37,084 nt of DNA. Origin: an uncultured Gemmatimonadota bacterium. GTDB taxonomy: Bacteria; Gemmatimonadota; Gemmatimonadetes; Gemmatimonadales; Gemmatimonadaceae. Where the stretch lies: the NCBI GenBank assembly GCA_902825965.1, contig CADEDA010000011.1, forward strand, positions 56,182-93,265, written 5' to 3'. Of the stretch, positions 8,375-33,074 are shown one piece after another (within the stretch, counting starts at the first letter, position 1; each line of letters starts with the position of its first letter). Position numbers and translations under genes: made by a program. The notes under the pieces are model-generated. The model searched no databases, was not told the origin of the DNA, and saw only the letters and a list, made by a program, of their open reading frames with translations.

Positions 8375-8796
8375 TCGTCTCCGATCCTCAGCAACGTCAT
8401 GTAGTCGATGAAATGCGTCGCGGGATAGTCGAGCTCGATCACCGCGATCGCGGCGTTTCCCGTCACGTGTACACTCACGATGCGCCGCTTGCGCTGGGCC
8501 TCGTCCGCCGCCGGGCGACCACTCGCGCCACCGATGTACTCGTCGGCCGTCCGCGTCGCGAGCTGCCCGTCCCGGACCCAGTAGAGCTTCGCTTCCTTCC
8601 AGAACGCCCGCCGGAACGCGACGGAGTCACCGGTCGCGTGGCCGCGCAGGTACGATTCCAAGGGGACACGCACGGCGAGCTCCTCCTGGGACGAGACGCG
8701 ACCCTCCGCGTCCTGCGCGCGTGATGCGCGGGTCGGGACCAGCAGCGCGAGGGTGATGGCGAGCGTGGACGCCGCGCGGTGAGCGACAGTGGACAT
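8323..8796 (-). CDS. Secreted NTF2/SnoaL-like protein
   Basis: 157 aa. The start ATG at 8796 has a good Shine-Dalgarno (GAGGA, 5 nt away). An N-terminal signal peptide (TLAITLALLVPTRASRAQ) is followed by a single small domain: VPLESYLRGHATGDSVAFRRAFWKEA, LYWVRDG, then AIAVIELDYPATHFIDYMTLLRIGDEWRIINKSFYA. This pattern is that of the lumazine-binding-like/SnoaL NTF2 superfamily, small alpha+beta cones that act as ligand-binding domains or minor enzymes. Substrate and role are unknown. It is transcribed with the propeller gene, which starts within its last codons. Fold assignment is moderately sure; function is not assigned. Confidence 0.75.
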   Translation of the reverse strand: MSTVAHRAASTLAITLALLVPTRASRAQDAEGRVSSQEELAVRVPLESYLRGHATGDSVAFRRAFWKEAKLYWVRDGQLATRTADEYIGGASGRPAADEAQRKRRIVSVHVTGNAAIAVIELDYPATHFIDYMTLLRIGDEWRIINKSFYAMPRRAP

Positions 8797-8960
8797 GCGG
8801 TTCCTCTGGTGAGTGGACGCCGAAGGCTACCGGCGCGCTCGACCCCGCTCCAGCGCGCGCGAGTGCGCATTCCGTCAACTCGCCGGGCCTGCCGTCCGCA
8901 TCCGGCAATCGTTCGCCACGCATCGCAAGGTCCCGCATCCTGCCGGCGCCCGCTTCGGGA

Positions 8961-8966
8961 TATATT
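8961..8966 (+). promoter_or_regulatory. Candidate -10 element for a leaderless helicase transcript
   Basis: TATATT lies six bases (CAGTGC) before the GTG start of the helicase gene, so transcription would begin at about the start codon. There is no Shine-Dalgarno before the GTG and no obvious -35 box. The same TANNTT-N6-start layout occurs at 19975 and, on the minus strand, at 23116. Confidence 0.5.
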
Positions 8967-8972
8967 CAGTGC

Positions 8973-19986: not shown

Positions 19987-20955
19987 ATGGATCGCAAGCG
20001 CTGGACCCTGCTCGTGATCGCCCCGAAGAACGGTCGGACGCGTGAGCTCTCCCTTCCAGGGTGGACCTTCCGCGCGACGGTCTACGGGGCCATCGCGGCT
20101 GTGCTCCTCATCGGGGCTGCGGTCACGGTGCTCTTCACGCCGTGGGGCACCCCGGGCTCCCGTCTGGTGGCGGCCCAGAACGCCGAACTCCAGCGCGAGA
20201 TCGCGGCCATCGAGGAACGCTTCAAGGTCCTCCAGGACACCATCGGGGCGATCGCGAAGCGCGAGGAACAGATGCGGATGCTGGCCGGGCTGCCCACCGG
20301 CCGCATGCCCACGGCGGATTCCAGCGCGCGGCTCCGTACCGCCTCGCTCTCCGAGCTCACCGTCCCCACCACCGCGGCCACGAACGACGCCACCGACGAC
20401 GCACCGGTCGCGCGGCGCCGACCGTTCCTCGGGCGCCTGGGCTGGAGCGCCCGGCCCGACGTGGAAGGACTCATCGACCGGGCCACGTCGCTCGCCCGCT
20501 CGTTCAGCGACGTCTCCGACACGCTGCAGCGGAACTACGACCGCTTCGCGAACACGCCGAGCATCATGCCGACCACCGGCTGGCTCTCGAGCCAGTTCAC
20601 CAAGAGCCGCTTCCATCCCATCCTGCACGAGAACCGGCCGCACGAGGGCATCGATGTCACGGCGCCCACCGGCACGCCGATCGTCGCGCCGGCGTCGGGA
20701 ACGGTGGTGTTCGCGGGCAGCGACAAGGGCTACGGCAACTCCGTGGTGATCGACCATGGCAACGGCATCCGCACACGCTTCGCGCACTGCTCCCGTGTCG
20801 CAGTACGGAACGGCCAGCGCGTCACGCGGGGCCAGCTCATCGCCGCCGTGGGCGCGACCGGACTCGCAACCGCCCCGCACCTGCACTACGAGATCCACGT
20901 GAACGGCAAGCCGGTGGATCCGCTCACCTACGTGCTCCCCGAAGCGGAGAAGTGA
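19987..20955 (+). CDS. M23 (LytM/NlpD-like) peptidoglycan endopeptidase family protein, membrane-anchored
   Basis: 322 aa. A short cytosolic N-terminus (MDRKRWTLLVIAPKNGRTRELSLPG is its first 25 or so residues in outline) leads to one transmembrane helix (about 31-52), then a coiled coil (AAQNAELQREIAAIEERFKVLQDTIG). The C-terminal M23 domain (about 200-322) has the zinc ligands H219 and D223 in PHEGID and the HLHYE motif (H298, H300). GTVVFAGSDKGYGNSVVIDHGNGIRTRFAHCS and GQLIAAVGATG are family hallmarks. All ligands being present suggests an active endopeptidase rather than an EnvC-like activator, though that is inference. It is probably involved in cell-wall remodelling in the periplasm. 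Confidence 0.88.
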   Translation: MDRKRWTLLVIAPKNGRTRELSLPGWTFRATVYGAIAAVLLIGAAVTVLFTPWGTPGSRLVAAQNAELQREIAAIEERFKVLQDTIGAIAKREEQMRMLAGLPTGRMPTADSSARLRTASLSELTVPTTAATNDATDDAPVARRRPFLGRLGWSARPDVEGLIDRATSLARSFSDVSDTLQRNYDRFANTPSIMPTTGWLSSQFTKSRFHPILHENRPHEGIDVTAPTGTPIVAPASGTVVFAGSDKGYGNSVVIDHGNGIRTRFAHCSRVAVRNGQRVTRGQLIAAVGATGLATAPHLHYEIHVNGKPVDPLTYVLPEAEK

Positions 20956-20970
20956 GCGCGGCGACGCGCT
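20955..20970. terminator. Hairpin with GCGA tetraloop between two convergent stops
   Basis: AGCGCG (20955-20960), loop GCGA, CGCGCT (20965-20970): a perfect 6-bp stem closed by a GNRA-type loop. It fills the 13-nt space between the peptidase stop (TGA 20953-20955) and the lemA stop (TAG, 20971-20969 on the minus strand). There is no T-run on either strand. It is probably a compact shared transcript end. Confidence 0.5.
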
Positions 20971-21532
20971 AGAACTTCACCTGCGGTGCCTCCTTCGCAG
21001 CCGCGTTGGTGACTTCGAAGTACTCGCGGGCCTTCGCACCCGTGACCTTCGCCGTCAGCACCGCCGGGAACCGGCGGATATAGGCGTTGTAGTCGCGCAC
21101 CGCGTTGTTGTAGTCCGTGCGCGCCACGCCGATCCGGTTCTCGGTGCCCGTCAGCTCATCCTGCAGGCGCAGGAAGGTGGCGTCGCTCTTGAGCGTCGGG
21201 TACGCCTCCGCGATCGCGATCAGCCGGCCCAGCGCGCCGGTCATCTGCTCGTTCGCGTTGGCCATCTGCTGCACGTTGCCGCCCTGCAGCGCACCGGTCA
21301 GGCCCGCGCGCGCCTCGGCGACCGCCGTGAAGATCTTCTCCTCCTGCGCGGCGAATCCCTTCACCGTCTCCACGAGGTTCGGCACCAGGTCGGCACGACG
21401 CTGGAGTTGCACCTCGATCTGCTGCTTGGCGGCGGCCGCCGCCTCGTCCATGGTCTGGATGGTGTTGTAGCCGCAAGCCGAGAGCAGGAACGGCAGCACC
21501 AGGATCAGCGGCAACCACTTCGACGTCTTCAC
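20969..21532 (-). CDS. lemA: LemA family lipoprotein
   Basis: 187 aa from a GTG at 21532, chosen because GGAG lies 6 nt upstream and it starts exactly at the signal peptide; the frame is open 300 nt further but over another gene. The lipobox is FLLSAC (Cys20). LemA hallmarks follow: YNTIQTMDEAAAAAKQQIEVQLQRRADLVPNLVETVKG, AEARAGLTGA, AYPTLKSDATFLRLQDELTGTENRIGVARTDYNNAVRDYNAYIRRFPA. LemA proteins are helical, membrane-attached and of uncertain function. They are commonly encoded beside TPM-domain proteins, as here (22313-23104). It is the third gene of that operon, 49 nt after the nucleotidyltransferase-like gene. Confidence 0.92.
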   Translation of the reverse strand: MKTSKWLPLILVLPFLLSACGYNTIQTMDEAAAAAKQQIEVQLQRRADLVPNLVETVKGFAAQEEKIFTAVAEARAGLTGALQGGNVQQMANANEQMTGALGRLIAIAEAYPTLKSDATFLRLQDELTGTENRIGVARTDYNNAVRDYNAYIRRFPAVLTAKVTGAKAREYFEVTNAAAKEAPQVKF

Positions 21533-21581
21533 GTGTCGCTCCGAGTGTGGGACAGAATGGAACAGGGGAAAGATGGGAACC

Positions 21582-22310
21582 TCAGCGGGTGTGCACCAGC
21601 GCGTCGACGTGCGCCACGAAGCGCTCCAGCCCCGCGTGGTACGCCTCGAGCACGGCGTCCGCCCGCGCCGCCGGGATGACCGCCGTACCGGCGACGTGAC
21701 CGAGCACGTCGAGGAACGGCGCGGGGTCGAACCCTGCGCGCGTCGCGGCCCGCTGCACCACCGCCGCGCTGCCATCGACGCCGCGCTCCCCGTGCACGCG
21801 CAGCAGCGTCCGGAACAACACCAGGACGGCACTCTTCGATGCGGCGAGCAGCGCGAGCTCCTGCGCCTGGTCCCCGTCGCAGCGCAGGATCCCCTGACGC
21901 AGCGCGATCAGCTTGCCCATCGCCTCGAACTCCAACTGGTGCCGCAAGTGGGCCGGGTCCACCGACGCGGGCTCCGCCGGCAGCGCACCCGCCAACACCA
22001 TGTGCCGGTCGAGGATGTCGGCGACCTCGATGGCGAACACGTCGCGGCTCGAGCGCCATTCACTCTCACTCAGCAGCAGCGGCGGCGGATTGCCGGCCGC
22101 CGCCCAGGCCTTGGCGGTCGCGGCACTCGCGCGCAGGGCGCGCGCCGTCAACGTCCGCACGATGACGAGCACATTCAGGTCGGAGCGTTGCTCCACCCGT
22201 TCCACCCGTTCGCCGCGCGCCGCCGATCCGTACAGCACCACTGCGATCAGCGCGTCGCCATGGATGCGCTGCAGGTCGGCCGTGAGTGCTTCCAAGGTCT
22301 GCGTCGCCAT
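21582..22310 (-). CDS. Nucleotidyltransferase-superfamily-like protein
   Basis: 242 aa; the ATG at 22310 is 2 nt after the TPM gene stop, with GGGAG 9 nt upstream. The N-terminal region reads AVVLYGSAARGERVERVEQRSDLNVLVIV, the shape of the pol-beta-like nucleotidyltransferase motif (GSxARGE ... SDxDxxV), but the usual second Asp is Asn (SDLNVLV), which may weaken metal binding. The rest is helical, with HLRHQLEFEAMGKLIALRQGIL and a C-terminal helix bundle reminiscent of the HEPN/substrate-binding helices found after such domains. It is sandwiched between a TPM-domain protein and LemA, an uncommon partner for them. The target is unknown; it could be a regulatory or inactive nucleotidyltransferase. 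Confidence 0.7.
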   Translation of the reverse strand: MATQTLEALTADLQRIHGDALIAVVLYGSAARGERVERVEQRSDLNVLVIVRTLTARALRASAATAKAWAAAGNPPPLLLSESEWRSSRDVFAIEVADILDRHMVLAGALPAEPASVDPAHLRHQLEFEAMGKLIALRQGILRCDGDQAQELALLAASKSAVLVLFRTLLRVHGERGVDGSAAVVQRAATRAGFDPAPFLDVLGHVAGTAVIPAARADAVLEAYHAGLERFVAHVDALVHTR

Positions 22311-22312
22311 CG

Positions 22313-23104
22313 TCAGAAACTCCCGCTCGAGCCACCACCGGAGAACCCGCCGCCACCACCGAACCCACCGAACCCACCACCGCCGAAACCACCGCCGCCG
22401 AACCCGCCACCCCAGGACCCACCGCCGCCACCGCCACCGCGCCCCACCGGGAACGGCACCACCACCAGACCGCCGCGCCGTCCACGACGGGACGAGAGCA
22501 GGCTCATGATGATGAAGAAGAGGAGGATGAAGACGACCGGCGGGATCCCCTGTTCGCGCTTCGCGCGCCGCCGCGGCACCAGCGTGCTGTCCAGCGAGAA
22601 CTGGAACTCCGCCGCGTAGCGCTGGGCCACGCGTGCCGTGATGAGCGCCAGCGCCGGTCCGTACTGCCCCTGCTGCAGTTGCGGCGTCGCCTCACGGATC
22701 ATGTCGCCCGTCATGCCGTCGGTGAGGAACCCCTCGGCGCCGTTGCCGACCTCGATCCGGATGTAGCCGCGACCGTCCTGGTTGCGCTCGCGCGGGACCA
22801 GCAGGATCACCACGCCCGCGTTGCGTGTGCGGTCGCCGATCGCCGCCTTGGCCCCCACGCCCCATTCGCGGCCGATCCGCAGCGCGACCTCGGCCACGTC
22901 GCGTCCCTTGAGGTCCGCCAGCGTGACCACGGCGATCTCACCGGCCGATCCCGCCTGCACCGTCTCGATCAGTCGCGTGATGCGCGCGCGATCCGCATCC
23001 GGGATGACGCCGGCGAAATCGCTGACGAAGCCCGTCGGGGCCGGGATCTGGGGATCCTGGACGGCGAGCAGCAGTGCGACGAGCGTGCTGGCGAAGAGGC
23101 TCAC
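22313..23104 (-). CDS. TPM-domain (YgcG family) membrane protein
   Basis: 263 aa with a GTG start. A short signal peptide (MSLFASTLVALLLAVQ) is followed by the TPM domain (about 22-160): PTGFVSDFAGVIPDADRARITRLIE, then SAGEIAVVTLADLKGRDVAEVALRIGREWGVG, NAGVVILLVPRERN and EVGNGAEGFLTDGMTG, the standard acid-rich blocks. A C-terminal transmembrane helix (PVVFILLFFIIMSLL) follows an RRRAKR patch. The protein ends in a long Gly tail (GGGGGGGSWGGGFGGGGFGG in part), typical of this family. TPM/YgcG proteins are paired with LemA in many bacteria and are thought to act in envelope maintenance or assembly; the biochemical role is not settled. It leads the TPM-nucleotidyltransferase-lemA operon. Confidence 0.9.
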   Translation of the reverse strand: MSLFASTLVALLLAVQDPQIPAPTGFVSDFAGVIPDADRARITRLIETVQAGSAGEIAVVTLADLKGRDVAEVALRIGREWGVGAKAAIGDRTRNAGVVILLVPRERNQDGRGYIRIEVGNGAEGFLTDGMTGDMIREATPQLQQGQYGPALALITARVAQRYAAEFQFSLDSTLVPRRRAKREQGIPPVVFILLFFIIMSLLSSRRGRRGGLVVVPFPVGRGGGGGGGSWGGGFGGGGFGGGGFGGFGGGGGFSGGGSSGSF

Positions 23105-23110
23105 ACCCGA

Positions 23111-23116
23111 AAACTA
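23111..23116 (-). promoter_or_regulatory. Candidate -10 element for a leaderless TPM transcript
   Basis: Read on the minus strand, TAGTTT (23116 down to 23111) is followed by TCGGGT and the GTG at 23104. Spacing is again six bases. It lies in the 34-nt gap after the carboxypeptidase-regulatory gene, so the TPM operon can be expressed on its own. No Shine-Dalgarno is visible. Confidence 0.5.
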
Positions 23117-23138
23117 CTGGGTGCGCGGCGCCGAAGTG

Positions 23139-23912
23139 TCAGGGGCGGCGCGGACCCGGCGCGGGTCGCCGACCGGGCTGCCGGTCGAGTCGCGAGCGGG
23201 TGTAGACGGCGATCGCACCGTTCGGCGCCCGGTCGCCGTACTGCACCCGCGACTCCGAGGGCGAGAGGATCGCGAAGAAGTAGATGTCGGAGGGAATGAT
23301 GATGGCCGTGGGACCGAGCACCTGTCCGTCGACCACGTACGTGAGGCAGCCCGGGGAGCGGGTGGTCCGGATGCAGCCCCCGTCGGCGCCGGAGACGAGC
23401 ACGGAGGCGCTGCCCACCGAGCGAATCAACTGGCTGAAGTTCTGCGCCCGATTCCGATGCTGCGCGACCAGCTCCGGCTCGAACACCTTCCATCCGCGGC
23501 GGATCGCCTCGTTGAGCCGCCGCTCGTTCAACGCGGACTCCGCCGTGACCGTGACCGCGCCGGCCTCGGTCGCGATCTCGGTCAACATGAAATCGAACTC
23601 CAGCGTGTCCGTCACCGGCTGCTCGCGGACCTGCGTGGTGCTCATCTCGAATCCGAGGCGACGCACCCGGAGCTCGAACGGTCCCGCCCGGCCGACCTTG
23701 AGCGCCCAGTTGCCCTGGTCGTCCGAGGTGGCCGTGGCGAGCGTGTTCCCGGCCGAGTCGCGAGCGACGATGTTCGCCGCCGGGATCGGTTGGGCAGTCC
23801 CGAGCACGCGGACGCTCCCGCGCACAACCTGGGCCCGCGCCGGAAGGGCGAGGAGGCTGAACGCGATCGGCGTGCCGAGCGCGACGAGTCGGAACAGGGA
23901 AGGGCGCGTCAT
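23139..23912 (-). CDS. Carboxypeptidase-regulatory domain plus TonB plug-like protein without barrel
   Basis: 257 aa. A signal peptide (FRLVALGTPIAFSLLALPARAQ) is followed by a CarboxypepD_reg-like fold (about 30-110): GSVRVLGTAQPIPAANIVARDSAGN, SDDQGNWALKV, FELRVRRLGFE. The second half resembles the plug of TonB-dependent receptors: CLTYVVDGQVLGP, IPSDIYFFAILSPSESRVQYGDRAPNGAIAVYTRS, the 'YVVDG ... DI ... YG..A.NGAI' pattern. No beta-barrel follows; the protein ends in a Pro/Arg-rich tail (RPAPGPRRP). It sits downstream of the susCD operon behind a strong hairpin. It could be a periplasmic partner or decoy of the SusC receptor, but this is speculation. No clear Shine-Dalgarno precedes the ATG. 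Confidence 0.72.
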   Translation of the reverse strand: MTRPSLFRLVALGTPIAFSLLALPARAQVVRGSVRVLGTAQPIPAANIVARDSAGNTLATATSDDQGNWALKVGRAGPFELRVRRLGFEMSTTQVREQPVTDTLEFDFMLTEIATEAGAVTVTAESALNERRLNEAIRRGWKVFEPELVAQHRNRAQNFSQLIRSVGSASVLVSGADGGCIRTTRSPGCLTYVVDGQVLGPTAIIIPSDIYFFAILSPSESRVQYGDRAPNGAIAVYTRSRLDRQPGRRPAPGPRRP

Positions 23913-23942
23913 GCGGGTGATGGACCTGATGGGAGAACGCCA

Positions 23943-23977
23943 GCGGCCACCGACTCCAGTGTGGAGTCGGTGGCCGC
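23943..23977. terminator. Perfect 15-bp hairpin below the susCD operon
   Basis: GCGGCCACCGACTCC (23943-23957), loop AGTGT, GGAGTCGGTGGCCGC (23963-23977) form a flawless stem. It lies 35 nt after the DUF4397 stop and 30 nt before the next start. The minus-strand sequence after it is not T-rich, so termination may be partial. It may also act as an attenuator or a 3' stabiliser that separates expression of the last gene. Confidence 0.7.
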
Positions 23978-24012
23978 GAACCGCAAGAGGCGTTGGGCCT
24001 GCTGCTGCCTGC

Positions 24013-24867
24013 TTACGGCGAGGTGGTGCGAGGCGGCTGACGGTCCGAGAACCAGACCACCGAACGCGCCGCCGAGGCAGCCGCCGGCGAGCCGACGACC
24101 GAGGGCGGGAACGCGATCGCGGTCAGGACCGAGCCGGCCACGGTCGCGCCCGCGATCGGGTCGGCCGTGGTGGTGCCAGCCACGCCAGCCGGAGCGGCTG
24201 CCGCAGCGAGAGAGACGGTGGTACCCGTCGCCGCGATCTGCGCCGAGAACTGGCCCACGGCGAGGTTCGCGTACGGCGACACTGCCTGGAACGCCACGTT
24301 GGCGAACGCCGGCGTCGCGCCGACGAGCGTCGTGGTGTTGGTGGCGGTGTTGAAGATGTCGACGTTCGCCGTGCCAAGTGCCGCGTGGATCGCGCGGATC
24401 GAGACCTGCGTGTTGGCCGTCGGGAGCGCGTCGTTGATGAGGATCACGCGCGCCGCCGGCGTCTGGCCGGCACGGGCGAAGCCGAGGTGCAGCATCGTGT
24501 AGTACTGACCGGCGACGAACGTGAAGGTCGTGTCGGCGATCTGCGCGGTGACTGCGCCCGATCCGCTGGTGTTGCTGTTGAGAGCCGGGTCATGGGTGAA
24601 GACGCGGAGGCGCTGGTCACCCGCCTCGACGCCCTGGTAGCCGCCCTGGCCCATCGCGCGGAACGCTACGTTCACGAACGTCTGCGGCACGTACTCGAGC
24701 TGGTCGATGAACCGCACGGTGAGGTTGTTCGTGTCCGGGACCGCGTTGATGTAGCGGACGAACGCGAGTGGCGGAAGCGTCCGGGTCACCGGACCTCCGT
24801 CGTCAGTCTGGCACGCAGCAGCGCCGAGCAGCAGCGCGCCGACAAGGCCGATTCGAGCAATACGCAT
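24013..24867 (-). CDS. DUF4397-domain lipoprotein
   Basis: 284 aa; the ATG at 24867 has GGGAG 9 nt upstream. Lipobox LLGAAAC puts the acylated Cys at residue 19. The body contains DUF4397-type repeats, each with 'VRYINAVPDTNNLTVRF', 'VNVAFRAMGQGGYQGVEAGDQRLRVF' and 'FTFVAGQYYTMLHLG', and a second copy beginning VSIRAIHAALGTANVDIFN with YANLAVGQFSAQI. These beta-sandwich-like domains occur in surface lipoproteins, often fused to or near fasciclin or anchoring modules; function is unknown. The position behind susC and susD suggests an accessory surface protein of the same outer-membrane system. A Ser/Ala-rich C-terminus follows. Confidence 0.82.
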   Translation of the reverse strand: MRIARIGLVGALLLGAAACQTDDGGPVTRTLPPLAFVRYINAVPDTNNLTVRFIDQLEYVPQTFVNVAFRAMGQGGYQGVEAGDQRLRVFTHDPALNSNTSGSGAVTAQIADTTFTFVAGQYYTMLHLGFARAGQTPAARVILINDALPTANTQVSIRAIHAALGTANVDIFNTATNTTTLVGATPAFANVAFQAVSPYANLAVGQFSAQIAATGTTVSLAAAAAPAGVAGTTTADPIAGATVAGSVLTAIAFPPSVVGSPAAASAARSVVWFSDRQPPRTTSP

Positions 24868-24920
24868 CAGTAGGAACTCCCTGGAGTGAGCGAAACTGGA
24901 GATGAGTGCGACGTGCGGCG

Positions 24921-25424
24921 CTAGCGCTCGTTGCAGTTCGGGGGGCAGTCACCGTCATCAGAAGAACGGCCACCTGCCACCCCGAGGATCGAGAATCCCG
25001 CGATGGCCGCACCGACGAGCAGAGCCACACCCGCCGTGAGCATCGCCGTCCGGGACCGGGAGAACTCCCGGAGCCGGAAGTGGCGGATCCCCTCGCGGGG
25101 GATCGCCACCGATTCACCGGTCCACACTACGGACGAACCCTGCATCAACACCGTACGGGCCACACTCAGCGTGACCTCGGAGCTGGTGGAATCGGTCAGC
25201 CGGCCTTCGACCCGCAAGACCGACTCCCCCAACCGTCCTGCGACCATCAGACGACCCCGGTCGTTCAACTCGACCGCGATTTCACGGCCGATCGTCGGAA
25301 CCGACTCCTGCACCGGCGAGTACGAGTGGCACCCGAATTGGACCGCCAACGCACCCGCCGCAACGAGGGCCGTGAGTCGACGGGACCACGAACGGTCCCG
25401 CCGGCCCAGGTCGTCATGCATCAT
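24921..25424 (-). CDS. Hypothetical lipoprotein with C-terminal transmembrane segment
   Basis: 167 aa; the ATG at 25424 abuts the susD stop with no gap (TAGATG), and a second ATG follows directly. A basic N-terminus (RRDRSWSRR) precedes a hydrophobic segment with lipobox-like AVQFGC. The central part (IAVELNDRGRLMVAGRLGESVLRVEGRL, VTLSVARTVLMQGSSVVWTGESVAIPREGIRHFRLREFSRSRT) looks like a small beta domain. A transmembrane helix (AMLTAGVALLVGAAIAGFSILGVAGG) and a short CPPNCNER tail end it. I recognise no family. Direct translational coupling to susD suggests a role with the SusCD complex, which is inference. Confidence 0.7.
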   Translation of the reverse strand: MMHDDLGRRDRSWSRRLTALVAAGALAVQFGCHSYSPVQESVPTIGREIAVELNDRGRLMVAGRLGESVLRVEGRLTDSTSSEVTLSVARTVLMQGSSVVWTGESVAIPREGIRHFRLREFSRSRTAMLTAGVALLVGAAIAGFSILGVAGGRSSDDGDCPPNCNER

Positions 25425-27074
25425 CTAGAACCCGTACGTCGACGGGCCCGCGAACGTCCGCGTCCCGTTGTAGTACGGCTGGCTACGCGCCTGCATCTCC
25501 TGGTACGGGACCGGCCACTCGATCGCGGTGTTCACGGGCAGGTCGCCCCAACCACGGCTATCGGTGAACCAGATCATGTAGCCCGTGAACGCGGTCTCCA
25601 TGCGCTTCTCGTACTTCATCGCCTCGAGCAAGGTGCCGCAGGTGCCGTTGGGGAGCCGCGGCACGCAGGCCGCGCCACCCGGGACGGTGCCCGCGCCGAC
25701 GCCCACCACGGACGGCAGGCCGTTCTTGATGCGCGAGCGGTCGATCAGCGGCTCCGCCAGCGCCGGCTGGCCGGTACGGAGATAGCCCTCGGCCGCGAGC
25801 ATCGCGACTTCTGTCGCGGACATCTCGGTGAAGTTGCCAGGGACCGTCGTGTTCGCGCGAGCGGCGCCGTAGCGGCGGTGGTCGTAGAACGACTCTCCGT
25901 CGCCGGGGATCAACACGTCATCGCCCGAGGGGCGGTTGCGCATATAGACGAAGCAGTCAGCCACTGGCGTCTGTCCGGCCGCGCGCATGGCAGTGGTATC
26001 GCAGAGCACCGGAACGATATTGTTGCCCGGCGTTGCAGCCTGCTGAAGCGCCCGCGTGTTTCCGCGCGCCCAACGCTTGTCCGGCGTGCGGACGAGGAAC
26101 GCGCGGCGAGAGGAGGACGGCGTGTTGTACCACGCCTGATAGGCACCGGAGGTGTCCGCCATGCCCGCGTACTTCATGGGCACCGAGTGCCACCCGCCAA
26201 CCACGTAGATCTGGTTCGCGTCGAACGCGACGGTGAACCCCGTCTGGCCATTGATGCTCACCACGTGGTCCGTTGTGATGCCGGCTGTGGCATCCGCGAT
26301 CACCAGCGCCCAGTTGACTGCGGCCCGCTCCGCCGCCGTTCGTGCCACTGCCGCGCGATACCGCGCCCGGTAACTGCGCGCCAGTTGGATGAAGTTCGCC
26401 TGGCTCATCGCCGTCGTGCCCGGGAGGCTCATCCAGCTCACCGGGACCGCGTCCATTCCGCGTCCGGCGATGGTGACCGCAGAGTCCAGAAACTCCATGG
26501 CCTTCGCGTTCGCCACCGCAGCGCTCACGAGCGGCGGGATGAACAGGCGATCGGTAATGGTCTCGTCCGAGAACGCCAACGAGTCATAGGCCACGGAAGC
26601 GGCGCCCAGTGACTGTCCGGCGATGAAATAGGCGAACGCCCGCATGCGGTTCGTCTCATTCGCGGTCAAGGTCGCCTTACTTGCTGCCGGCAGGGCGTTG
26701 TACGCGGTCAGAAGATTGAACGCCAAGCGGTTGAGCCGCTGGAACGAGAAATAGTTGGCGCGATTGCTCTCGGCGTTGTCGTTGCCCAACTCGTTGGAGA
26801 TGAGTGAGCGATTCGACGCGCGCGCCGCCATGCCGAAGTTCGCCACCGACGCGAACGACTCCTCGGACATGATCTTGCCCTGTGTGTTCACCGACTCGCT
26901 TGCGCGCTGCGGATTGAAAAGCTGAGAGCCCATTCCTGAGACGGCGCCCTGCAGTGACAAAGCCGTACCGGCGACGCGCTCGATTTCAGGAGCTCCGTAG
27001 TTGGTCACTCCCAGCTCGCAGGCTGTCAGCCCGAGAACCGTGAGCGCACCAAGTGCTCGTGCGTAATTTCGCAT
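25425..27074 (-). CDS. SusD/RagB-like outer-membrane nutrient-binding lipoprotein
   Basis: 549 aa; the ATG at 27074 is preceded by GAGGA, 6 nt away. Lipobox LGLTAC (Cys19) is followed by the SusD-like helical/TPR fold: QLFNPQRASESVNTQGKIMSEE, a helix with RLAFNLLTAYNALPAASKATLTANETNRMRAFAYFIAGQSLG, FIQLARSYRARYRAAV and, near the C-terminus, MLAAEGYLRTGQPALAEPLIDRSR, LLEAMKYEKRMETAFTGYMIWFTDSRGWGDLPV and IEWPVPYQEMQARSQ. In Bacteroidetes the SusD lipoprotein is the lid on the SusC channel and captures glycans or peptides. Here the substrate is unknown: there is no glycoside hydrolase or peptidase gene beside it. The preceding 62-nt gap holds a hairpin. Confidence 0.9.
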   Translation of the reverse strand: MRNYARALGALTVLGLTACELGVTNYGAPEIERVAGTALSLQGAVSGMGSQLFNPQRASESVNTQGKIMSEESFASVANFGMAARASNRSLISNELGNDNAESNRANYFSFQRLNRLAFNLLTAYNALPAASKATLTANETNRMRAFAYFIAGQSLGAASVAYDSLAFSDETITDRLFIPPLVSAAVANAKAMEFLDSAVTIAGRGMDAVPVSWMSLPGTTAMSQANFIQLARSYRARYRAAVARTAAERAAVNWALVIADATAGITTDHVVSINGQTGFTVAFDANQIYVVGGWHSVPMKYAGMADTSGAYQAWYNTPSSSRRAFLVRTPDKRWARGNTRALQQAATPGNNIVPVLCDTTAMRAAGQTPVADCFVYMRNRPSGDDVLIPGDGESFYDHRRYGAARANTTVPGNFTEMSATEVAMLAAEGYLRTGQPALAEPLIDRSRIKNGLPSVVGVGAGTVPGGAACVPRLPNGTCGTLLEAMKYEKRMETAFTGYMIWFTDSRGWGDLPVNTAIEWPVPYQEMQARSQPYYNGTRTFAGPSTYGF

Positions 27075-27099
27075 CTTGATTCCTCGATGTGGGGACAGC

Positions 27100-27127
27100 G
27101 CATCGGGCGGCCGAGACCGCCCGGTGC
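27100..27127. repeat. Intercistronic hairpin between susC and susD
   Basis: GCATCGGGCGG (27100-27110), loop CCGAGA, CCGCCCGGTGC (27117-27127). In the minus-strand mRNA the core is seven G-C pairs, then one mismatch, then three more pairs. It lies 9 nt after the susC stop and upstream of the susD Shine-Dalgarno. This is the usual place for a structure that sets different mRNA levels of receptor and lipoprotein. Confidence 0.6.
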
Positions 27128-27136
27128 GATGCCGGA

Positions 27137-30100
27137 TCAGAAGCTGGTGCTGATCTGGAAGGAGAACGTCCGGAGGTTCGGGAAGCCGAAGGCGTCGACG
27201 GCGTTCAGCACGCCCGAGCCCAGGTTGCCGCCGCCCAGGCCGACTTCAGGGTCGAAGCCCTTGTAGTCGGTGATCGTCAGCAGGTTGCGGCCCACCATCG
27301 AGAGGCTCCAGTCACCGACGCCGGCGAGGCGGCCGATGCGGTAGCCCAACGAGACCTCGCGGACCTTCACGAACGTCGCATCCTCGACCGTGTTGTTGTT
27401 GGGGCCGAGCACGTCGTACAGGCCACCCACGCCGCCCGTCGAGAGCGCGCGGAAGTAGTAACCGATCGGCTTGGCCGTGGCGACCGACTTGCCGCGCTGG
27501 TCGGCGTCGGCGTGCATGAAGTCACCCATGGACCACTGACGGGCCTCGTTCCACACCGACTTGCCCACCGTGGCGTCGAGCAGCGCGTACGCCGTGAACT
27601 TCTTCCACGACGCCTGCTGCGACAGACCCCAGCGGTAGCTCGGCAGCGCCTGGCCGAGCGAGACGTTCGGCACGGCACCGCTCGCGTCACGGAACAGGAT
27701 CGGCATGCCCCAGTTCAGATACTCTGCCGTCGTTCCGCCACCCCACGGCGCGTTGGCGGCCGCGAGGCGCGTGTTCCACAGATTCCGGGTGATGCCGTCA
27801 CCGAGCGCGTTGCCGGCGCCGACCCACACGATGAAGCCGTCGCTGTTCTTCTGGTACTCGGAGCCCGCGCCACCGCACTGCGCGGCGAAGGTCGCCGGCA
27901 GCTGCGAGCAGCTGGTGACGAACCGGCGTCCGAAGATCTCACCCATGCGACCACCCTGCTTGATCAGGAACATGGTCTCGGTGCCCTGCTGGCCGGCCGC
28001 CGTCGTGAAGAACTCGGGGATGTCGAGGCGCGAGATCGTCGAGCGCGTGCGGTCGAACGTCGCACGGATCGAGTAGTTCAGGTCGCGCGTCTGGATGATC
28101 GGGATGTTGAGCGCGACTTCGAACGTCTTGTTCGAGAGCTTACCCACGTTCTGCCACTGGCTCACGAAGCCGCTGATGCCAGGGAGCGAGACCGGCATGA
28201 TCTGCTGGTCGATGGAGTTGTTGGCCTGCGTGACCGTGATGCCGTACTTGCTGAAGAGCTCGAGGTCGAAACCGAACTCCTGCTCCGTCGAGACTTCCGG
28301 CTTGAGGGTCGCGTTGCCGACCTGCCCGCCGCCGCCGATGAGTCCGGTGGCCGTGAGGCCGTAGGTCTCATACTGCGCGTTGAACGTCGGCCGGTTGCCC
28401 GCCTGGCCCAACGAGTAGCGGAACTTGAGGTCCGAGACCTGGTCGATGCCGAACCAGGACTCCTCGCTGATGCGCCACGCCGCGGAGCCGCGGCCGTAGG
28501 TCTGCCAGCGGTTCGCCGCGCCGAAGAGCGAGGCACCGTCGCGCCGCACGAGGCCGCTGACGATGTACTTGCCCTGCCAGTCAAGGTCGAGGTTCACGAA
28601 CATGCCGAGCTGGCGCACGGTCTCTTCGAAGTTGCCGCCGTTGCGCGTGGTCGCCAGCGTGTTGGCGATCGTGCGCAGGCCGGCCACCGCGAGGGTCGCG
28701 CCGTTCACGTTGAGGCCGCGGTCCACCTGCGTCTCGTACAGCGTGCGGAACGTCATCCGAGACGTCAGGTTGTCGCTGAAGAAGTTGCGACGCGCCGTCA
28801 GGTCGGCCGAGGCGTTGAGCGAGTACGACCGGTTCGAGCTGCGCGTGATGTTGCCCAACTGCGTCGCACCGGCCGGGCCGGTGGTCGTGCGGAAGCCCTG
28901 CTCCTGCTGGTTGTCCTGCTGATTGCCGCGCGTGTCCACGCCGAAGTTGCCTTCCGCGTCCAGCCACAGCAGCGGCTGCCAACGGGCCGTCGCCTGGCCG
29001 ATGAAGCGGCTGATGTAGTTGACGGGACGGATGTTCTCCGCGTCGTACATCGGGTTCTGGTTCTGCGCCCCCTGCTGCTGCGGCACGGACCGGATGAAGA
29101 TGCGGCCCTGCGAGTCGCGGCGGAGGATGTTGGAGCTGGCCGGCTGACGGGTCAGGCGGAACCACCCGTTGCCGAAGGCCGTGTTGTTGTCGGTGGCGTC
29201 GGTGTAGTTGGAGCGCACGGAGAAGTTCCAGGCGCTGGCCAGCTGCTGGTCGACGTTCACGCGCATCGAGTTGCGGGTGTAACCGTCGAGGTAACGCACC
29301 GCGCCTTCTTGCCGGAGCTGGTTGGCCGAGGTGAAGAAGTTGGTGCGGCCCACGCGGCCCGTCGCATCCGCCGTCGCATTGATCGTCGCGCCGTTGGTCA
29401 GCGCCATGCGGATCGGGTTGTACGTGCGGACGAACGGCGTCACCTGGTACAGGTTGCGCGCGTTGTGCACGCCCGGGTTGCGGGCGATGCCCGCGTCGTT
29501 GGAAAACGTCAGCGGCGTCAGGGCGAAACCAATGCCGCCGTCGTTGATGCGGAACGCTTCCTGCTCGATGTCCACCGCGCGCGAGCAGTCCCGCTGGCCC
29601 GAGACCACCGTGCAATAGCGCGAGTAGTCCTCGTTCATCAGCATGAAGTGCGTCTTCGGATACTGGTACTCGTTCTCGATCGACTGCGTGCCGTACTCGA
29701 CCTGGGAACGGAACCGGATGCCTTCACCCGCGTTCTTGCCCGAGCGGGTCGTGATCTGGATGACACCGTTGCCGGCGCGCGAGCCGTAGAGCGAGGACGC
29801 CGCGGCGCCCTTCACGACTTCCACGTTCTCGATGTCCTGCGGATTGATGTCCTGGATGCCGCCCTGCGAGATCACGCCGTCCACGATGTAGAGCGGGTCC
29901 TGCCCACGACCCGAGGCGTTGATCGACTGGGGGCCACGCAGGATCACCGCCGGAGCCGAACCCGGACGACCGGTGTTCGAGACGATGTTCGCGCCGGGCA
30001 CCTTGCCCTGGAGCTGCGCCAGCGGGTTGGCACCCGGGACCGGCATGTCCTCCGCCGTCACCTGGGCCACCGTGAACGGCAGCTTCTTCACTTCGGTCGC

Positions 30101-30484
30101 GCCCGACACACCCGTCACCACGACCTGGCTGAGGCGGTTCACGTCCTGCTTGAGCGCGAAGTCCTGCGTCTGCGAGCCGGCCGCCACCGTGATGGTCCGG
30201 ACGACAGGGACGAAACCAAACATGCGGGCGCGGAGTACTACCTGCTGACCGCGTACCCGGGCCCCGGGCACGTTGATGGTGTACCGGCCGTCTTCGGCCG
30301 TTCCCACGGAGATCGCGAGAGCTTCGATCGTGACATTCGCTCCGTAGAGCGGCTGACCCGCCTCGCTCGTGACTCGACCGGTGACCGTCGCGCCTTGGGC
30401 GCTGGCCACCGATGCCGTCGTGAGGGAGAGGAGCAGCGCGAGGATGGAGGCGTTAAGCCCCCGCATCCCGTTCCGTCCCAGCAT
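27137..30484 (-). CDS. SusC/RagA-like TonB-linked outer-membrane receptor
   Basis: 1115 aa from the ATG at 30484, chosen because GAGG lies 7 nt upstream; the ATG at 30490 and an open frame to 30601 are possible but less apt. The signal peptide (about 1-30, ASILALLLSLTTASVASAQG) leads to a CarboxypepD_reg-like domain (GRVTSEAGQPLYGANVTIEAL, EDGRYTINVPG), a linker with VVVTG, the plug (LAQLQGKVPGANIV, RGQDPLYIVDGVI, IEVVKGAAASSLYGSRAGNGVI-like block NVEVVKGAAASSLYG, QITTRSG) and a long porin-like barrel. The C-terminus RTFSFQISTSF ends in Phe as an outer-membrane barrel signal. It imports an unknown polymer or nutrient with TonB energy, together with the SusD lipoprotein 62 nt downstream. Confidence 0.93.
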   Translation of the reverse strand: MLGRNGMRGLNASILALLLSLTTASVASAQGATVTGRVTSEAGQPLYGANVTIEALAISVGTAEDGRYTINVPGARVRGQQVVLRARMFGFVPVVRTITVAAGSQTQDFALKQDVNRLSQVVVTGVSGATEVKKLPFTVAQVTAEDMPVPGANPLAQLQGKVPGANIVSNTGRPGSAPAVILRGPQSINASGRGQDPLYIVDGVISQGGIQDINPQDIENVEVVKGAAASSLYGSRAGNGVIQITTRSGKNAGEGIRFRSQVEYGTQSIENEYQYPKTHFMLMNEDYSRYCTVVSGQRDCSRAVDIEQEAFRINDGGIGFALTPLTFSNDAGIARNPGVHNARNLYQVTPFVRTYNPIRMALTNGATINATADATGRVGRTNFFTSANQLRQEGAVRYLDGYTRNSMRVNVDQQLASAWNFSVRSNYTDATDNNTAFGNGWFRLTRQPASSNILRRDSQGRIFIRSVPQQQGAQNQNPMYDAENIRPVNYISRFIGQATARWQPLLWLDAEGNFGVDTRGNQQDNQQEQGFRTTTGPAGATQLGNITRSSNRSYSLNASADLTARRNFFSDNLTSRMTFRTLYETQVDRGLNVNGATLAVAGLRTIANTLATTRNGGNFEETVRQLGMFVNLDLDWQGKYIVSGLVRRDGASLFGAANRWQTYGRGSAAWRISEESWFGIDQVSDLKFRYSLGQAGNRPTFNAQYETYGLTATGLIGGGGQVGNATLKPEVSTEQEFGFDLELFSKYGITVTQANNSIDQQIMPVSLPGISGFVSQWQNVGKLSNKTFEVALNIPIIQTRDLNYSIRATFDRTRSTISRLDIPEFFTTAAGQQGTETMFLIKQGGRMGEIFGRRFVTSCSQLPATFAAQCGGAGSEYQKNSDGFIVWVGAGNALGDGITRNLWNTRLAAANAPWGGGTTAEYLNWGMPILFRDASGAVPNVSLGQALPSYRWGLSQQASWKKFTAYALLDATVGKSVWNEARQWSMGDFMHADADQRGKSVATAKPIGYYFRALSTGGVGGLYDVLGPNNNTVEDATFVKVREVSLGYRIGRLAGVGDWSLSMVGRNLLTITDYKGFDPEVGLGGGNLGSGVLNAVDAFGFPNLRTFSFQISTSF

Positions 30485-30519
30485 GAGCATACCTCGTGAA
30501 GGGGTTTTCCGACGGATGG

Positions 30520-30535
30520 TCACGTGCTCACGTGC
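30520..30535. promoter_or_regulatory. Tandem TCACGTGC pair upstream of susC
   Basis: Two consecutive copies of TCACGTGC, each holding the palindrome CACGTG (30521-30526 and 30529-30534). It lies about 36 nt upstream of the susC start codon, so it is probably in the 5' leader or near the promoter. It could be an operator; the 8-bp spacing is not a full helical turn, which argues for caution. Confidence 0.35.
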
Positions 30536-30642
30536 CATCGCCTCGCCAACGAACCGACGCCGCCAAACGACTGCGCCGGACACAACAAGCACAACAGACA
30601 CTACGCCCCTTCCCGCTGACGCGGAGGGGGGAACCGAAGGCC

Positions 30643-30655
30643 CGTTACGGTAACG
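30643..30655. promoter_or_regulatory. Palindrome CGTTACGGTAACG
   Basis: A perfect 6-bp inverted repeat with a single central G. It lies 159 bp upstream of the susC start in the divergent spacer. It is compatible with binding by a dimeric regulator. Confidence 0.4.
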
Positions 30656-30662
30656 CTACCTG

Positions 30663-30726
30663 GAAAGGGGCGCAACCCTAGCCCAGGACAGCACCTGCGC
30701 TACCGGCGCACAAAATCGCCCCTTTC
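30663..30726. repeat. 10-bp inverted repeat GAAAGGGGCG / CGCCCCTTTC
   Basis: Arms at 30663-30672 and 30717-30726 are exact complements separated by 44 nt. It could form a stem in an RNA leader or flank a regulator site. Confidence 0.45.
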
Positions 30727-30759
30727 GGGCCGATCCACGGTCTGTGCCCTGCATCACAC

Positions 30760-30775
30760 GGAATACGGGTATTCC
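30760..30775. promoter_or_regulatory. 16-bp palindrome GGAATACGGGTATTCC
   Basis: Seven-base arms GGAATAC and GTATTCC flank a GG centre. It is AT-richer than its surroundings and lies between the two divergent genes, 144 nt before the dsbA-like start. It is the best operator-like site in the window. Confidence 0.5.
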
Positions 30776-30828
30776 TTGTCTCCGTACCCGCCGTCGGGCC
30801 CCCGCGTCACATCCCCCGACCGACCCAG

Positions 30829-30876
30829 CGCCTGACCATCGCCTCACCAGCGCCTCACCAGCGCCTCACCAGCGCC
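30829..30876. repeat. 11-bp tandem repeat (about four copies)
   Basis: Three exact copies of CGCCTCACCAG (30840-30850, 30851-30861, 30862-30872) follow a diverged copy CGCCTGACCAT (30829-30839). CGCC begins a fifth. The period is about one helical turn. The array ends 42 nt before the start of the dsbA-like gene. Confidence 0.8.
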
Positions 30877-30903
30877 GTGGCTAGCCTCCCCGCCCGCGAC
30901 GAC

Positions 30904-30909
30904 TACCTT
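30904..30909 (+). promoter_or_regulatory. Candidate -10 element for the dsbA-like gene
   Basis: TACCTT ends 9 nt before the ATG at 30919. There is no Shine-Dalgarno in the intervening CCCCTCTAT. The spacing is as at dnaE. Confidence 0.4.
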
Positions 30910-30918
30910 CCCCTCTAT

Positions 30919-31653
30919 ATGAAGACGTCCTCCCGAAGCGCCGCGAGCACCGGCATCGCACTCGCCTCGCTGGTCCTGCTCGTCCTGCTCGTCCTGCTCT
31001 CCGCCCCAGCCGCCTCGGCAGCCGCTCAGGCCCAGGCCGCCCGCAGCGAGACCGGCACCAACGGAACCAACAGCACCACCGCCGATCGGCAGGCACGCGT
31101 CGCCACGGCTGACCGCGGGCGCATCCGCGGCAACACCGACGCGAAGGTCTGGGTCGTCGTCATCTCCGACTTCCAGTGCCCGTTCTGCAAGAAGTGGCAC
31201 CACGAGACTGAGCCGCGGATCACCGCGGAGTACGTGCGCACCGGCAAGGTGCAGATCGCGTACATCAACTACCCGATCGCCAGCATCCATCCCAATGCGC
31301 AGGCCACCCACGAAGCCGCGATGTGCGCGGCGGAACAGGGGAAGTTCTGGCCCGTCGCGGATGCGCTCTTCGCGACGCAGCAGGTGTGGAAGGGACACCG
31401 CGACATCGTGCGCTTCGCCGACTCGCTCACAGTCGCCGCCGGCGTGGATCCGGCGCGCTTCCGCGCCTGCGTCAGGGACGGCGTCATGCGCCCCTTGATC
31501 GACGCAGACCTCGATCGCTCCAAGCGCATGGGTGTGGGCTCCACGCCGTCGTTCCTCGTCGGCGGCCGCCCGCTCGTGGGGGCCCAGCCCTACGAAGCGT
31601 TCAAGCAGGCCATCGACGCCGCGCTCGCTGCCGCCGGCCAGTCGACCCCCTGA
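30919..31653 (+). CDS. DsbA/BdbD-like periplasmic thiol-disulfide protein
   Basis: 244 aa from the ATG at 30919; a GTG at 30877 would only add residues before the signal peptide. The signal peptide holds a Leu/Val run coded by a 9-bp tandem repeat. After a Thr/Ala-rich linker comes a thioredoxin-fold DSBA domain: KVWVVVISDFQCPFCKKWHHETEP with active-site CPFC (C87, C90), YINYPI, NAQATHEAAMCAAEQGKFWPVADALF, a helical insert, and SKRMGVGSTPSFLVGGRPLVGAQPYEAFKQAID with the cis-proline loop TPSFLV. This is the BdbD/ScoI-like DsbA_4 type, an oxidase or isomerase of exported proteins. No dsbB is in view. waaA follows 77 nt downstream. Confidence 0.88.
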   Translation: MKTSSRSAASTGIALASLVLLVLLVLLSAPAASAAAQAQAARSETGTNGTNSTTADRQARVATADRGRIRGNTDAKVWVVVISDFQCPFCKKWHHETEPRITAEYVRTGKVQIAYINYPIASIHPNAQATHEAAMCAAEQGKFWPVADALFATQQVWKGHRDIVRFADSLTVAAGVDPARFRACVRDGVMRPLIDADLDRSKRMGVGSTPSFLVGGRPLVGAQPYEAFKQAIDAALAAAGQSTP

Positions 31654-31730
31654 GCGCGACCGGCCCGGTAGAGCTCCCGCCCGCTCTCGACCCGCTCTCG
31701 CCTCGCCCGCACAACGCTCGCGCCGCGCCC

Positions 31731-33074
31731 GTGCATCCGCTCCTCGCGCTCCCCTACGCGGCACTCGCCCTCACGGCCGACGCACTCGCGCGACTGCCGG
31801 TGCGCAGCGAGCTCAAGGCATGGCGCGCCATCCAAGCCCGGCGCGGCGCACTTGAACGCCTGACGGCCTGGGGCCGCAACCACCGGGACGCGACGCGCCC
31901 CCTGCTCTGGATGCACGCCCCATCGGTCGGCGAGGGCCTGCAGGCACGACCGGTCATCGAGCTGCTGCGCGCGCGACATCCCGCACTGCAGGTCTGCTAC
32001 ACGCACTACTCGCCCAGCGCCGAACGGTTCGCCGAGGCCATGCGCGCCGCCGGCAGCGCGGACGTGGTGGAATACCTCCCGTTCGACACGGCCAGCAATG
32101 CGGTCGCCGCACTCGACGCACTCCGGCCCACCGCCCTCGTGTTCGCCAAGCTCGACGTCTGGCCCCGGCTCGTCGCCGAGGCCGCGGCGCGGCGGGTCCA
32201 GCTGGGTCTCGTCTCCGCGACGCTCAGCGCGGGATCCGGTCGCAGCGGCGCCCTCGCGCGCGCCATGCTCGGCGACGCCTACGCGGCCCTCGACGCCGTC
32301 GGCGCGATCGACGACGCCGATCGCGATCGGCTGGTCGCCCTCGGTGTGCGGGCGGACCGCATCCGCGTCGCCGGCGACACGCGGTACGACCAGGTCATCA
32401 CACGCGCGGCGGCGGTGGACCACAACGGCGCGATGCGCCAGCCGCTGCTCGAGCCGCTGCTCGCGCCGCTGCGCAGCACGCGCCCCACCCTGGTGGCCGG
32501 CTCCACCTGGCCGGCCGACGAGCACGTCCTGCTCGACGCCTGGCGGCGGCTGCATCGCGAGTTGCCGGAGGCCCGGTTGATCATCGCGCCGCACGAACCG
32601 ACGGCCGCGCACTGCGCGCCGATCCGCCGCTGGGCGAGCGACTGCGGACTCTCGCTCGCCGCCCTGGGCGATGCATCGCTCAGCGATGCCACGCCCACAC
32701 CGGATCCCGACGTGCTACTGGTGGACCGCGTGGGCGTGCTCGGCGACCTCTACGCCCTCGCGACCGCCGCGTACGTCGGGGGCGGTTTCCACGCCGCGGG
32801 CCTGCATTCGGTGCTCGAACCCGCGGCATTCGGCGCGCCGGTGCTCTTCGGCCCGCGGCACACGATGAGCCGCGATGCGGGGCTGTTGCTCGAGGCCAAG
32901 GCCGCGACGGCCGCGCCCGATGCCGCTGGGCTCGCGGACGCCTTGCGCATCCTGTTCACCGAACCCGACACACGCGCGCGCGCGGGCACTGCGGCGCTGG
33001 CAGTGGTACGTCGGGGGCAGGGTGCCGCCGAGCGATCGGCAGCGCTGGTCGAACGGCTGCTCGGGCTCGGTTGA
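31731..33074 (+). CDS. waaA: 3-deoxy-D-manno-octulosonic acid transferase (Kdo transferase)
   Basis: 447 aa from GTG 31731; the start is uncertain because no Shine-Dalgarno is visible, but it places a membrane-associating helix (LLALPYAALALTADALA) at the N-terminus as in the family. Kdo transferase adds Kdo to lipid A precursor at the inner membrane, so the organism makes LPS. Motifs: LLWMHAPSVGEGLQARPVIELLR, VEYLPFDTA, GDTRYDQV, GSTWPADEHVLL, IIAPHEPTA, and AAYVGGGFHAAGLHSVLEPAAFGAPVLFGPRH. The ETELWP block of proteobacterial enzymes reads AKLDVWP here, and GGGFHAAGLH resembles Bacteroidetes-type enzymes. The number of Kdo units added cannot be predicted. It is convergent with the barrel gene. 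Confidence 0.87.
   Translation: MHPLLALPYAALALTADALARLPVRSELKAWRAIQARRGALERLTAWGRNHRDATRPLLWMHAPSVGEGLQARPVIELLRARHPALQVCYTHYSPSAERFAEAMRAAGSADVVEYLPFDTASNAVAALDALRPTALVFAKLDVWPRLVAEAAARRVQLGLVSATLSAGSGRSGALARAMLGDAYAALDAVGAIDDADRDRLVALGVRADRIRVAGDTRYDQVITRAAAVDHNGAMRQPLLEPLLAPLRSTRPTLVAGSTWPADEHVLLDAWRRLHRELPEARLIIAPHEPTAAHCAPIRRWASDCGLSLAALGDASLSDATPTPDPDVLLVDRVGVLGDLYALATAAYVGGGFHAAGLHSVLEPAAFGAPVLFGPRHTMSRDAGLLLEAKAATAAPDAAGLADALRILFTEPDTRARAGTAALAVVRRGQGAAERSAALVERLLGLG

Follow-up and report, generated by a model that had tools for sequence, protein, structure and literature searches.

Plug domains are usually encountered inside the barrel of a receptor, and the TonB-dependent transducers of cell-surface signalling are built in the order STN, plug and barrel. 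Closest to the protein described here are SusC-type receptors such as Bt1763, for which the accessible portion of one study (PMC7782687) describes closed states with a barrel devoid of its plug and names DEVVVTG as the Ton box. The same portion reports growth defects like those of SusD loss when this Ton box is deleted or mutated, a block of Bacteroides thetaiotaomicron growth upon loss of the N-terminal extension (NTE) of SusC, and a dominant-negative effect on growth when the NTE of Bt1763 is deleted. The NTE has also been implicated in the receptor-TonB interaction in B. thetaiotaomicron, according to the part of PMC12204202 available to us. Our literature search covered titles and abstract openings, with most subscription papers outside its scope, and within these we found no free plug protein of the kind described below; the accessible part of PMC12611786 held nothing bearing on the plug.

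We analysed a stretch of 37,084 nucleotides (hereafter, the window) from an uncultured Gemmatimonadota bacterium, and all coordinates are those of the window unless a locus label of the form Lnnn (e.g., L036), used for the compared loci, is given. The window holds a gene for a free plug protein, kept beside a SusC that has a plug of its own.

Domains and predicted fold of the plug protein

The plug gene and its parts are as follows.

23139-23912, minus strand: stand-alone NTE-plug protein (open reading frame with ATG start, 257 aa; relatives; Ka/Ks 0.22)
23832-23912, minus strand: putative signal peptide, residues 1-27 (AxA/Q cleavage site by eye; pLDDT below 50 at residues 1-24)
23583-23831, minus strand: CarboxypepD_reg domain, or SusC NTE, residues 28-110 (Pfam and fold match)
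23541-23561, minus strand: Ton-box-like segment GAVTVTA, residues 118-124 (profile alignment with Bt1763; conservation; low-confidence linker at 114-125)
23190-23537, minus strand: plug domain, residues 126-241 (domain predicted alone, and structure matches)
23346-23375, minus strand: Cys180-Cys189 loop directly before YVVDG, with a probable disulfide (both cysteines in 35 of 35 family rows)

The original prediction had described a CarboxypepD-regulatory plus plug protein that stands alone and lacks a barrel, and this description holds, with the domains, the quoted motifs and the stop all present. YVVDG occupies residues 192-196 and YGDRAPNGAIAVYTR residues 225-239; the latter is followed by a basic, proline-rich tail of 18 residues and then by the stop codon. 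No barrel follows the plug, as the stop lies 18 residues past residue 239 and the next called reading frame begins 34 bp downstream. The signal peptide was assigned by eye from the sequence, without a predictor, and a lipobox cysteine, also read by eye, is absent.

The N-terminal domain was recognised by Pfam CarboxypepD_reg (PF13620; residues 30-107, E = 1.7e-10, 41.5 bits against a cut-off of 32.3), and a match to CarbopepD_reg_2 spans residues 30-122. For the remainder of the protein, single-sequence searches gave weaker signals. Pfam Plug (PF07715) did not match the window protein at E ≤ 1, staying below its gathering score, and matched 1 of 15 family members (E = 0.019), while the NCBIfam SusC/RagA model TIGR04056 aligned to residues 40-239 with E = 2.4e-4 and 19.6 bits, against a cut-off of 368.25. 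Judged by curated cut-offs, the protein thus falls outside both SusC and Pfam Plug. A profile of 15 family members found Bt1763 SusC in the PDB (E = 4.6e-11), and hhalign against the SusC N-termini from the same loci covered residues 29-240 (probability 98.3, E = 1.7e-14). Neither STN nor TonB_C (PF03544) models matched the protein at E ≤ 1 in Pfam; on the former result we set aside cell-surface signalling through an STN domain.

Structure models, built on three sequences, agree with these assignments. The model of the whole protein had a mean pLDDT of 67.2, with residues 1-24, 114-125 and 241-257 below 50. Its N-terminal domain has the transthyretin-like fold of CarboxypepD_reg and the SusC NTE, aligning with carboxypeptidase D (1qmu; VIA Z 12.4, rmsd 1.6, 80 residues aligned) and with the NTE of SusCdex (9hfj; VIA Z 11.3, rmsd 2.4, 80 aligned). 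No plug appeared among the best 50 matches listed for the whole model; because that search was filled by matches to the N-terminal domain, residues 126-241 were predicted alone. This C-terminal domain, as the original prediction would have it, is predicted as a plug (pLDDT 86.3, pTM 0.81). All of the best 50 PDB matches listed by Foldseek are TonB-dependent receptors by title (some rows are models), with a best E of 1.3e-3, so that none among those listed reaches 0.001. VIA-align placed the domain on the Bt1763 plug (6z9a_B) with Z 10.0 and rmsd 2.4 over 100 residues; a Z of 8 was reached by 4 of 440 chains. Given the plug model, the receptor-only Foldseek matches and the alignment with the Bt1763 plug, we regard the plug as real, and its model suggests that it can fold in the absence of a barrel. 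By fold and profile, the protein is a SusC NTE plus plug without the barrel.

Linkage to a SusC cassette

Upstream of the plug gene lies a cassette of four genes, and downstream of it a gene outside this unit.

27137-30601, minus strand: SusC/RagA TonB-linked receptor that has an NTE, a plug and a barrel region of its own (TIGR04056, 477.9 bits; Plug, E = 3.8e-17)
25425-27074, minus strand: SusD-like putative lipoprotein, cassette gene 2, divergent in sequence (position after SusC; family matches)
24921-25424, minus strand: putative lipoprotein of 167 aa, cassette gene 3 (synteny; lipobox by eye)
24013-24867, minus strand: DUF4397 putative lipoprotein, cassette gene 4 (domain match and synteny; lipobox by eye)
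22313-23104, minus strand: TPM-domain protein, downstream neighbour, outside the unit (domain match; in several genomes, at a distance from the plug gene)
23943-23977, no strand: perfect 16-bp inverted repeat (hairpin) between the DUF4397 and plug genes (repeat search)

A SusCD locus had been placed near the plug gene by the original prediction. The SusC part of this is secure (477.9 bits to TIGR04056), and the SusD part is weakly supported: the window copy matched neither a SusD model in Pfam or NCBIfam nor, at E ≤ 1, any PDB chain; Pfam SusD_RagB was matched by 3 of 14 family members (best E = 5.3e-5); and the family profile gave two weak matches in the PDB. We therefore call this gene SusD-like. 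The 167-aa putative lipoprotein has a hydrophobic stretch near its C-terminus and no convincing family match.

The order SusC, SusD-like, 167-aa lipoprotein, DUF4397 and plug protein is conserved. We compared 34 distinct loci (the window, 14 and 19 others; L038 and L088 were left out because they duplicate L036 and L037), and in 29 of them DUF4397 was the next match upstream of the plug gene. Matches here are tblastn hits of window proteins, so that the count may overlook a small unrelated gene lying between two of them. Among the five exceptions, L046 ends at a contig edge, L050 has no DUF4397 match and the 167-aa gene comes next, and L101, L103 and L107 are second copies of the plug gene away from any such cassette. 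The stand-alone protein is accordingly tied to the SusC cassette, as predicted.

On its other side, the plug gene is usually followed by genes for TPM, nucleotidyltransferase and LemA proteins. It is conceivable that it belongs to this group and follows the Sus cassette only by coincidence, given the gap of 34 bp to the TPM reading frame and the terminator-like hairpin on its Sus side. We consider this very unlikely, since the plug protein is homologous to SusC and DUF4397 is kept where TPM lies farther away or does not adjoin. In L093, L094, L099 and L104 other genes stand between the plug gene and TPM and the plug gene is still beside DUF4397, and in L037, L040, L043 and L097 no TPM match adjoins the plug gene. 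The first four loci in particular show that the plug gene follows the Sus side. The nucleotidyltransferase-like gene of the window (21582-22310, minus strand) is kept in the TPM-LemA group; it has weak ANT(3'') matches far below the cut-off.

The hairpin was the only inverted repeat of at least 13 bp within 20001-32000. Its exact sequence is present as a single copy in its own genome, which gives no ground for a dispersed terminator motif and allows us to claim only a hairpin. Inverted repeats of 13-21 bp occupy the gap between DUF4397 and the plug gene in 15 loci that were preselected for a strong repeat (the window, L036, L039-L045, L047, L089, L091, L095, L098 and L106); no strong repeat was found near the plug-gene start in L037, L050, L093, L094, L100, L102, L104 and L105, among others. 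Hairpins of at least 13 bp also occur elsewhere, e.g., in the gap between SusC and SusD-like genes of L039, L040, L042, L043, L044 and L106. A weak T tract comes after the hairpin in several loci, and a paired change separates the window from L036. The hairpin is possibly a terminator, an attenuator or an operator. It could stop the Sus transcript or reduce plug-gene expression, and thus counts against simple membership of the plug gene in a Sus operon.

Related cassettes without the plug gene exist as well (L119, L120, L123 and the second cassette of L041), which excludes a strict rule that such a cassette brings a plug gene; those of L124, L125, L126, L128 and L129 are cut by contig ends and were left unjudged. 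An FG-GAP protein stands in the place of the plug gene in L119 (9336-11405), L123 (3031-5283) and L041 (19303-19899), accompanied by UnbV_ASPIC in L119 and L123.

These cassettes also bear on the idea that the protein is an assembly or quality-control factor for SusC, whose free plug would occupy or test the barrel during folding or while the receptor's own plug is absent. The linkage of the plug gene to one group of SusC would suit such a factor, as would the closed states of Bt1763, with the plug out of the barrel, and the dominant-negative NTE deletion (both from the accessible portion of PMC7782687). Related cassettes nevertheless manage without the gene, and we find an assembly role improbable.

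Persistence in the phylum and barrel-less relatives

We surveyed 395 Gemmatimonadota genomes with up to six candidates scored per genome, so that the counts, tallied by eye, are lower bounds; genes in relatives were called by GC by codon position. The survey extended the single case to stand-alone relatives above 185 bits in at least 48 of the 395 genomes, with the next listed match at 113 bits. Among the matches listed, all of these relatives fall within the family-level group of the window and represent six genera. Of the records that carry a name, the two nearest are MAGs from Gemmatimonadaceae and Gemmatimonadetes, which places the window in Gemmatimonadota. At least five of the 48 or more genomes carry a second copy of the plug gene. 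At L091 the gene is tandemly duplicated inside the cassette, at about 9373-10086 and 10136-10792.

Barrel remnants in relatives at the same place would be expected if the protein were a recently truncated receptor, and we did not see them. In copies outside the closest relatives, the frame ended 0-10 residues past the profile match in 20 of 20 measured, i.e., at the plug; in closer relatives a tail follows that reaches ~45 residues at most and is often rich in proline and basic residues. Ka/Ks of the plug gene against the nearest relative (L036) was 0.22, and the cassette genes in the same comparison gave 0.20 (SusC), 0.25 (SusD-like), 0.22 (DUF4397) and 0.32 (167-aa gene). The stand-alone form therefore persists across genera and is under constraint. 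Recent truncation is ruled out by the spread over at least 48 genomes, the 20 of 20 distal ends, the cysteines kept in 35 of 35 rows and the Ka/Ks of 0.22. For the same reasons a decaying remnant, to which the domain order of a receptor N-terminus might point, is scarcely credible. Since related species carry it intact, the protein probably has a function.

Plug proteins without a barrel occur widely in the phylum. Among the best 150 plug matches listed, 82 lay in frames no longer than 400 residues, 45 in frames of 401-700 and 23 in longer ones; these counts are no census, since barrel-less proteins made up most of the query. The plug profile found 12 places in the window's own genome at E ≤ 0.001, including the window protein and the adjacent SusC. 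Two of the proteins in this genome join the NTE and plug to a TonB C-terminal domain.

G000:C9:106410-107585 (L141:3908-5086), minus strand: secreted NTE-plug-TonB_C fusion
G000:C9:104562-105653 (L141:2033-3220), minus strand: secreted NTE-plug-TonB_C fusion

In the fusion of 392 residues, CarboxypepD_reg (1.9e-15), Plug (1.2e-9) and TonB_C (6.3e-10) all exceed their Pfam cut-offs, and the same three domains do so in that of 395 residues. Both come after a SusC (TIGR04056, 439 bits) and a 414-aa protein that is SusD-like by position only, no model matching it. A Kyte-Doolittle scan showed no hydrophobic segment in the fusions past the signal-peptide region, and hence no evident inner-membrane anchor. 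Nine TonB_C matches were counted in the window's own genome. Full-length fusion matches were present in at least 21 of 61 genomes (tallied by eye). We re-found 20 fusions in 17 loci from 17 genomes; a long SusC or SusD-like match was nearby in 5 of the 17 and the NTE-plug part of SusC only in 3 more, and several of the remaining loci end early at contig ends.

Further variants stand beside related cassettes. L121 encodes a fusion-like protein and a double-NTE-plug protein (7206-8369, plus strand, and 6060-7280, minus strand); NTE, plug and TonB_C of the former are each just below the Pfam cut-off, and it lies on the other strand from the cassette. In L127, from another family of the order, a lipoprotein-like plug-only frame (8672-9145, plus strand; Plug E = 0.0011, below cut-off) directly follows DUF4397. 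Additional barrel-less NTE-plug frames lie upstream of, and divergent from, SusC at L045:8274-9170 (plus strand) and L127:928-1842 (minus strand), with Plug E-values of 1.8e-4 and 0.003, both below the cut-off.

Ton-box-like segment, proposed role and known systems

A Ton box was among the features to be expected of a protein that meets TonB, and the search for one returned a Ton-box-like segment at the Ton-box position of Bt1763. The usual family pattern is D-[AT]-V-x-[VI]-T-[AG], which the family profile alignment sets on DEVVVTG of Bt1763; the window copy reads GAVTVTA. Its conservation is good, not strict: V120 is present in 28 of 35 rows, V or I at position 122 in 32 and A or G at 124 in 31, and the segment is degenerate in L049 and L102 and variable in others. 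Because the CarbopepD_reg_2 match reaches residue 122, retention of this strand need not mean use; it may reflect inherited structure and not a working motif.

Conservation elsewhere in the protein is stricter. Cys180 and Cys189 are present, and A136, G140, W141 and P146 kept, in all 35 family rows (2 rows cut by contig ends); the two cysteines are probably joined by a disulfide, the bond itself being our reading of their conservation. The window also encodes a DsbA/thioredoxin-fold protein (30877-31653, plus strand; Thioredoxin_4, E = 4.9e-31), divergent from SusC; such a gene is often near the cassette and is a candidate source of the putative disulfide.

The cysteine-closed loop before YVVDG and the four invariant residues suggest a family-specific surface, as might be expected if the protein were a repurposed periplasmic binding or scaffold protein, e.g., one that receives imported substrate, with a plug fold unrelated to TonB. 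The many and varied barrel-less plug proteins of the phylum would fit such a binder, and so would the second copies and several distant relatives that adjoin other genes. On the other hand, the Ton-box-like segment is retained in most members and a TonB C-terminal domain occurs in related proteins; we regard a TonB-independent binder as somewhat unlikely.

We tentatively favour a periplasmic accessory protein that would contact TonB on behalf of the adjacent SusC-type transporter, because of the homology to the SusC NTE and plug, the constraint, the linkage, the Ton-box-like segment and the fusions in the same genome. The segment and the TonB_C-fused relatives make contact with TonB, which the original prediction had raised, more plausible; competition with the receptor or its regulation, likewise raised there, would be candidate effects. 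In such a role, a free and probably disulfide-stabilised NTE and plug would sit in the periplasm beside the SusC transporter, and the NTE and Ton-box-like strand would engage TonB. The protein could thereby tune the supply of TonB to the adjacent SusC, in one direction or the other, as a decoy, adaptor or docking factor, and its plug may also contact the barrel of SusC whenever the receptor's own plug has left it. Against a TonB-coupling role count the possibly inherited, partly degenerate Ton-box-like strand, the hairpin, the cassettes without a plug gene and the three second copies outside cassettes. A wider reading, in which soluble periplasmic plugs, some of them TonB_C-fused and without an evident inner-membrane anchor, act as relays or decoys between TonB and SusC-type receptors in Gemmatimonadota, appears doubtful at present.

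If the plug protein does tune access to TonB, it would represent a form of control over TonB-dependent transport that we did not find in the literature searched, and relays or decoys of the wider kind would add an extra control layer between TonB and receptor, likewise not found there. The protein is moreover a natural soluble plug for biophysics and offers a route to asking what the SusC NTE does with TonB.

Compared with known systems, the plug protein shares the NTE, the Ton-box position, the plug and the order of parts with SusC/RagA receptors (TIGR04056; Bt1763, RagA). It differs from them in the missing barrel, in a helix of its own with a conserved A..RGW before the plug core, and in the Cys180-Cys189 loop. 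Its NTE has the same fold as that of SusC (9hfj), followed here by a plug without a barrel. TonB-dependent transducers likewise combine a plug with a periplasmic N-terminal domain, whereas the plug protein has neither an STN match nor a barrel. The model of the myxochelin receptor MxcH (NF038079), a receptor with a barrel, gave a weak match, with the model start aligned to a TonB_C stretch; MxcH, like the fusions, carries TonB_C and receptor parts on one chain, and the plug protein has neither TonB_C nor barrel. The NTE-plug-TonB_C fusions, some of them beside SusC, resemble it in having a signal sequence, NTE and plug and no barrel; compared with these, the plug protein lacks the TonB C-terminal domain and is ~135 residues shorter.
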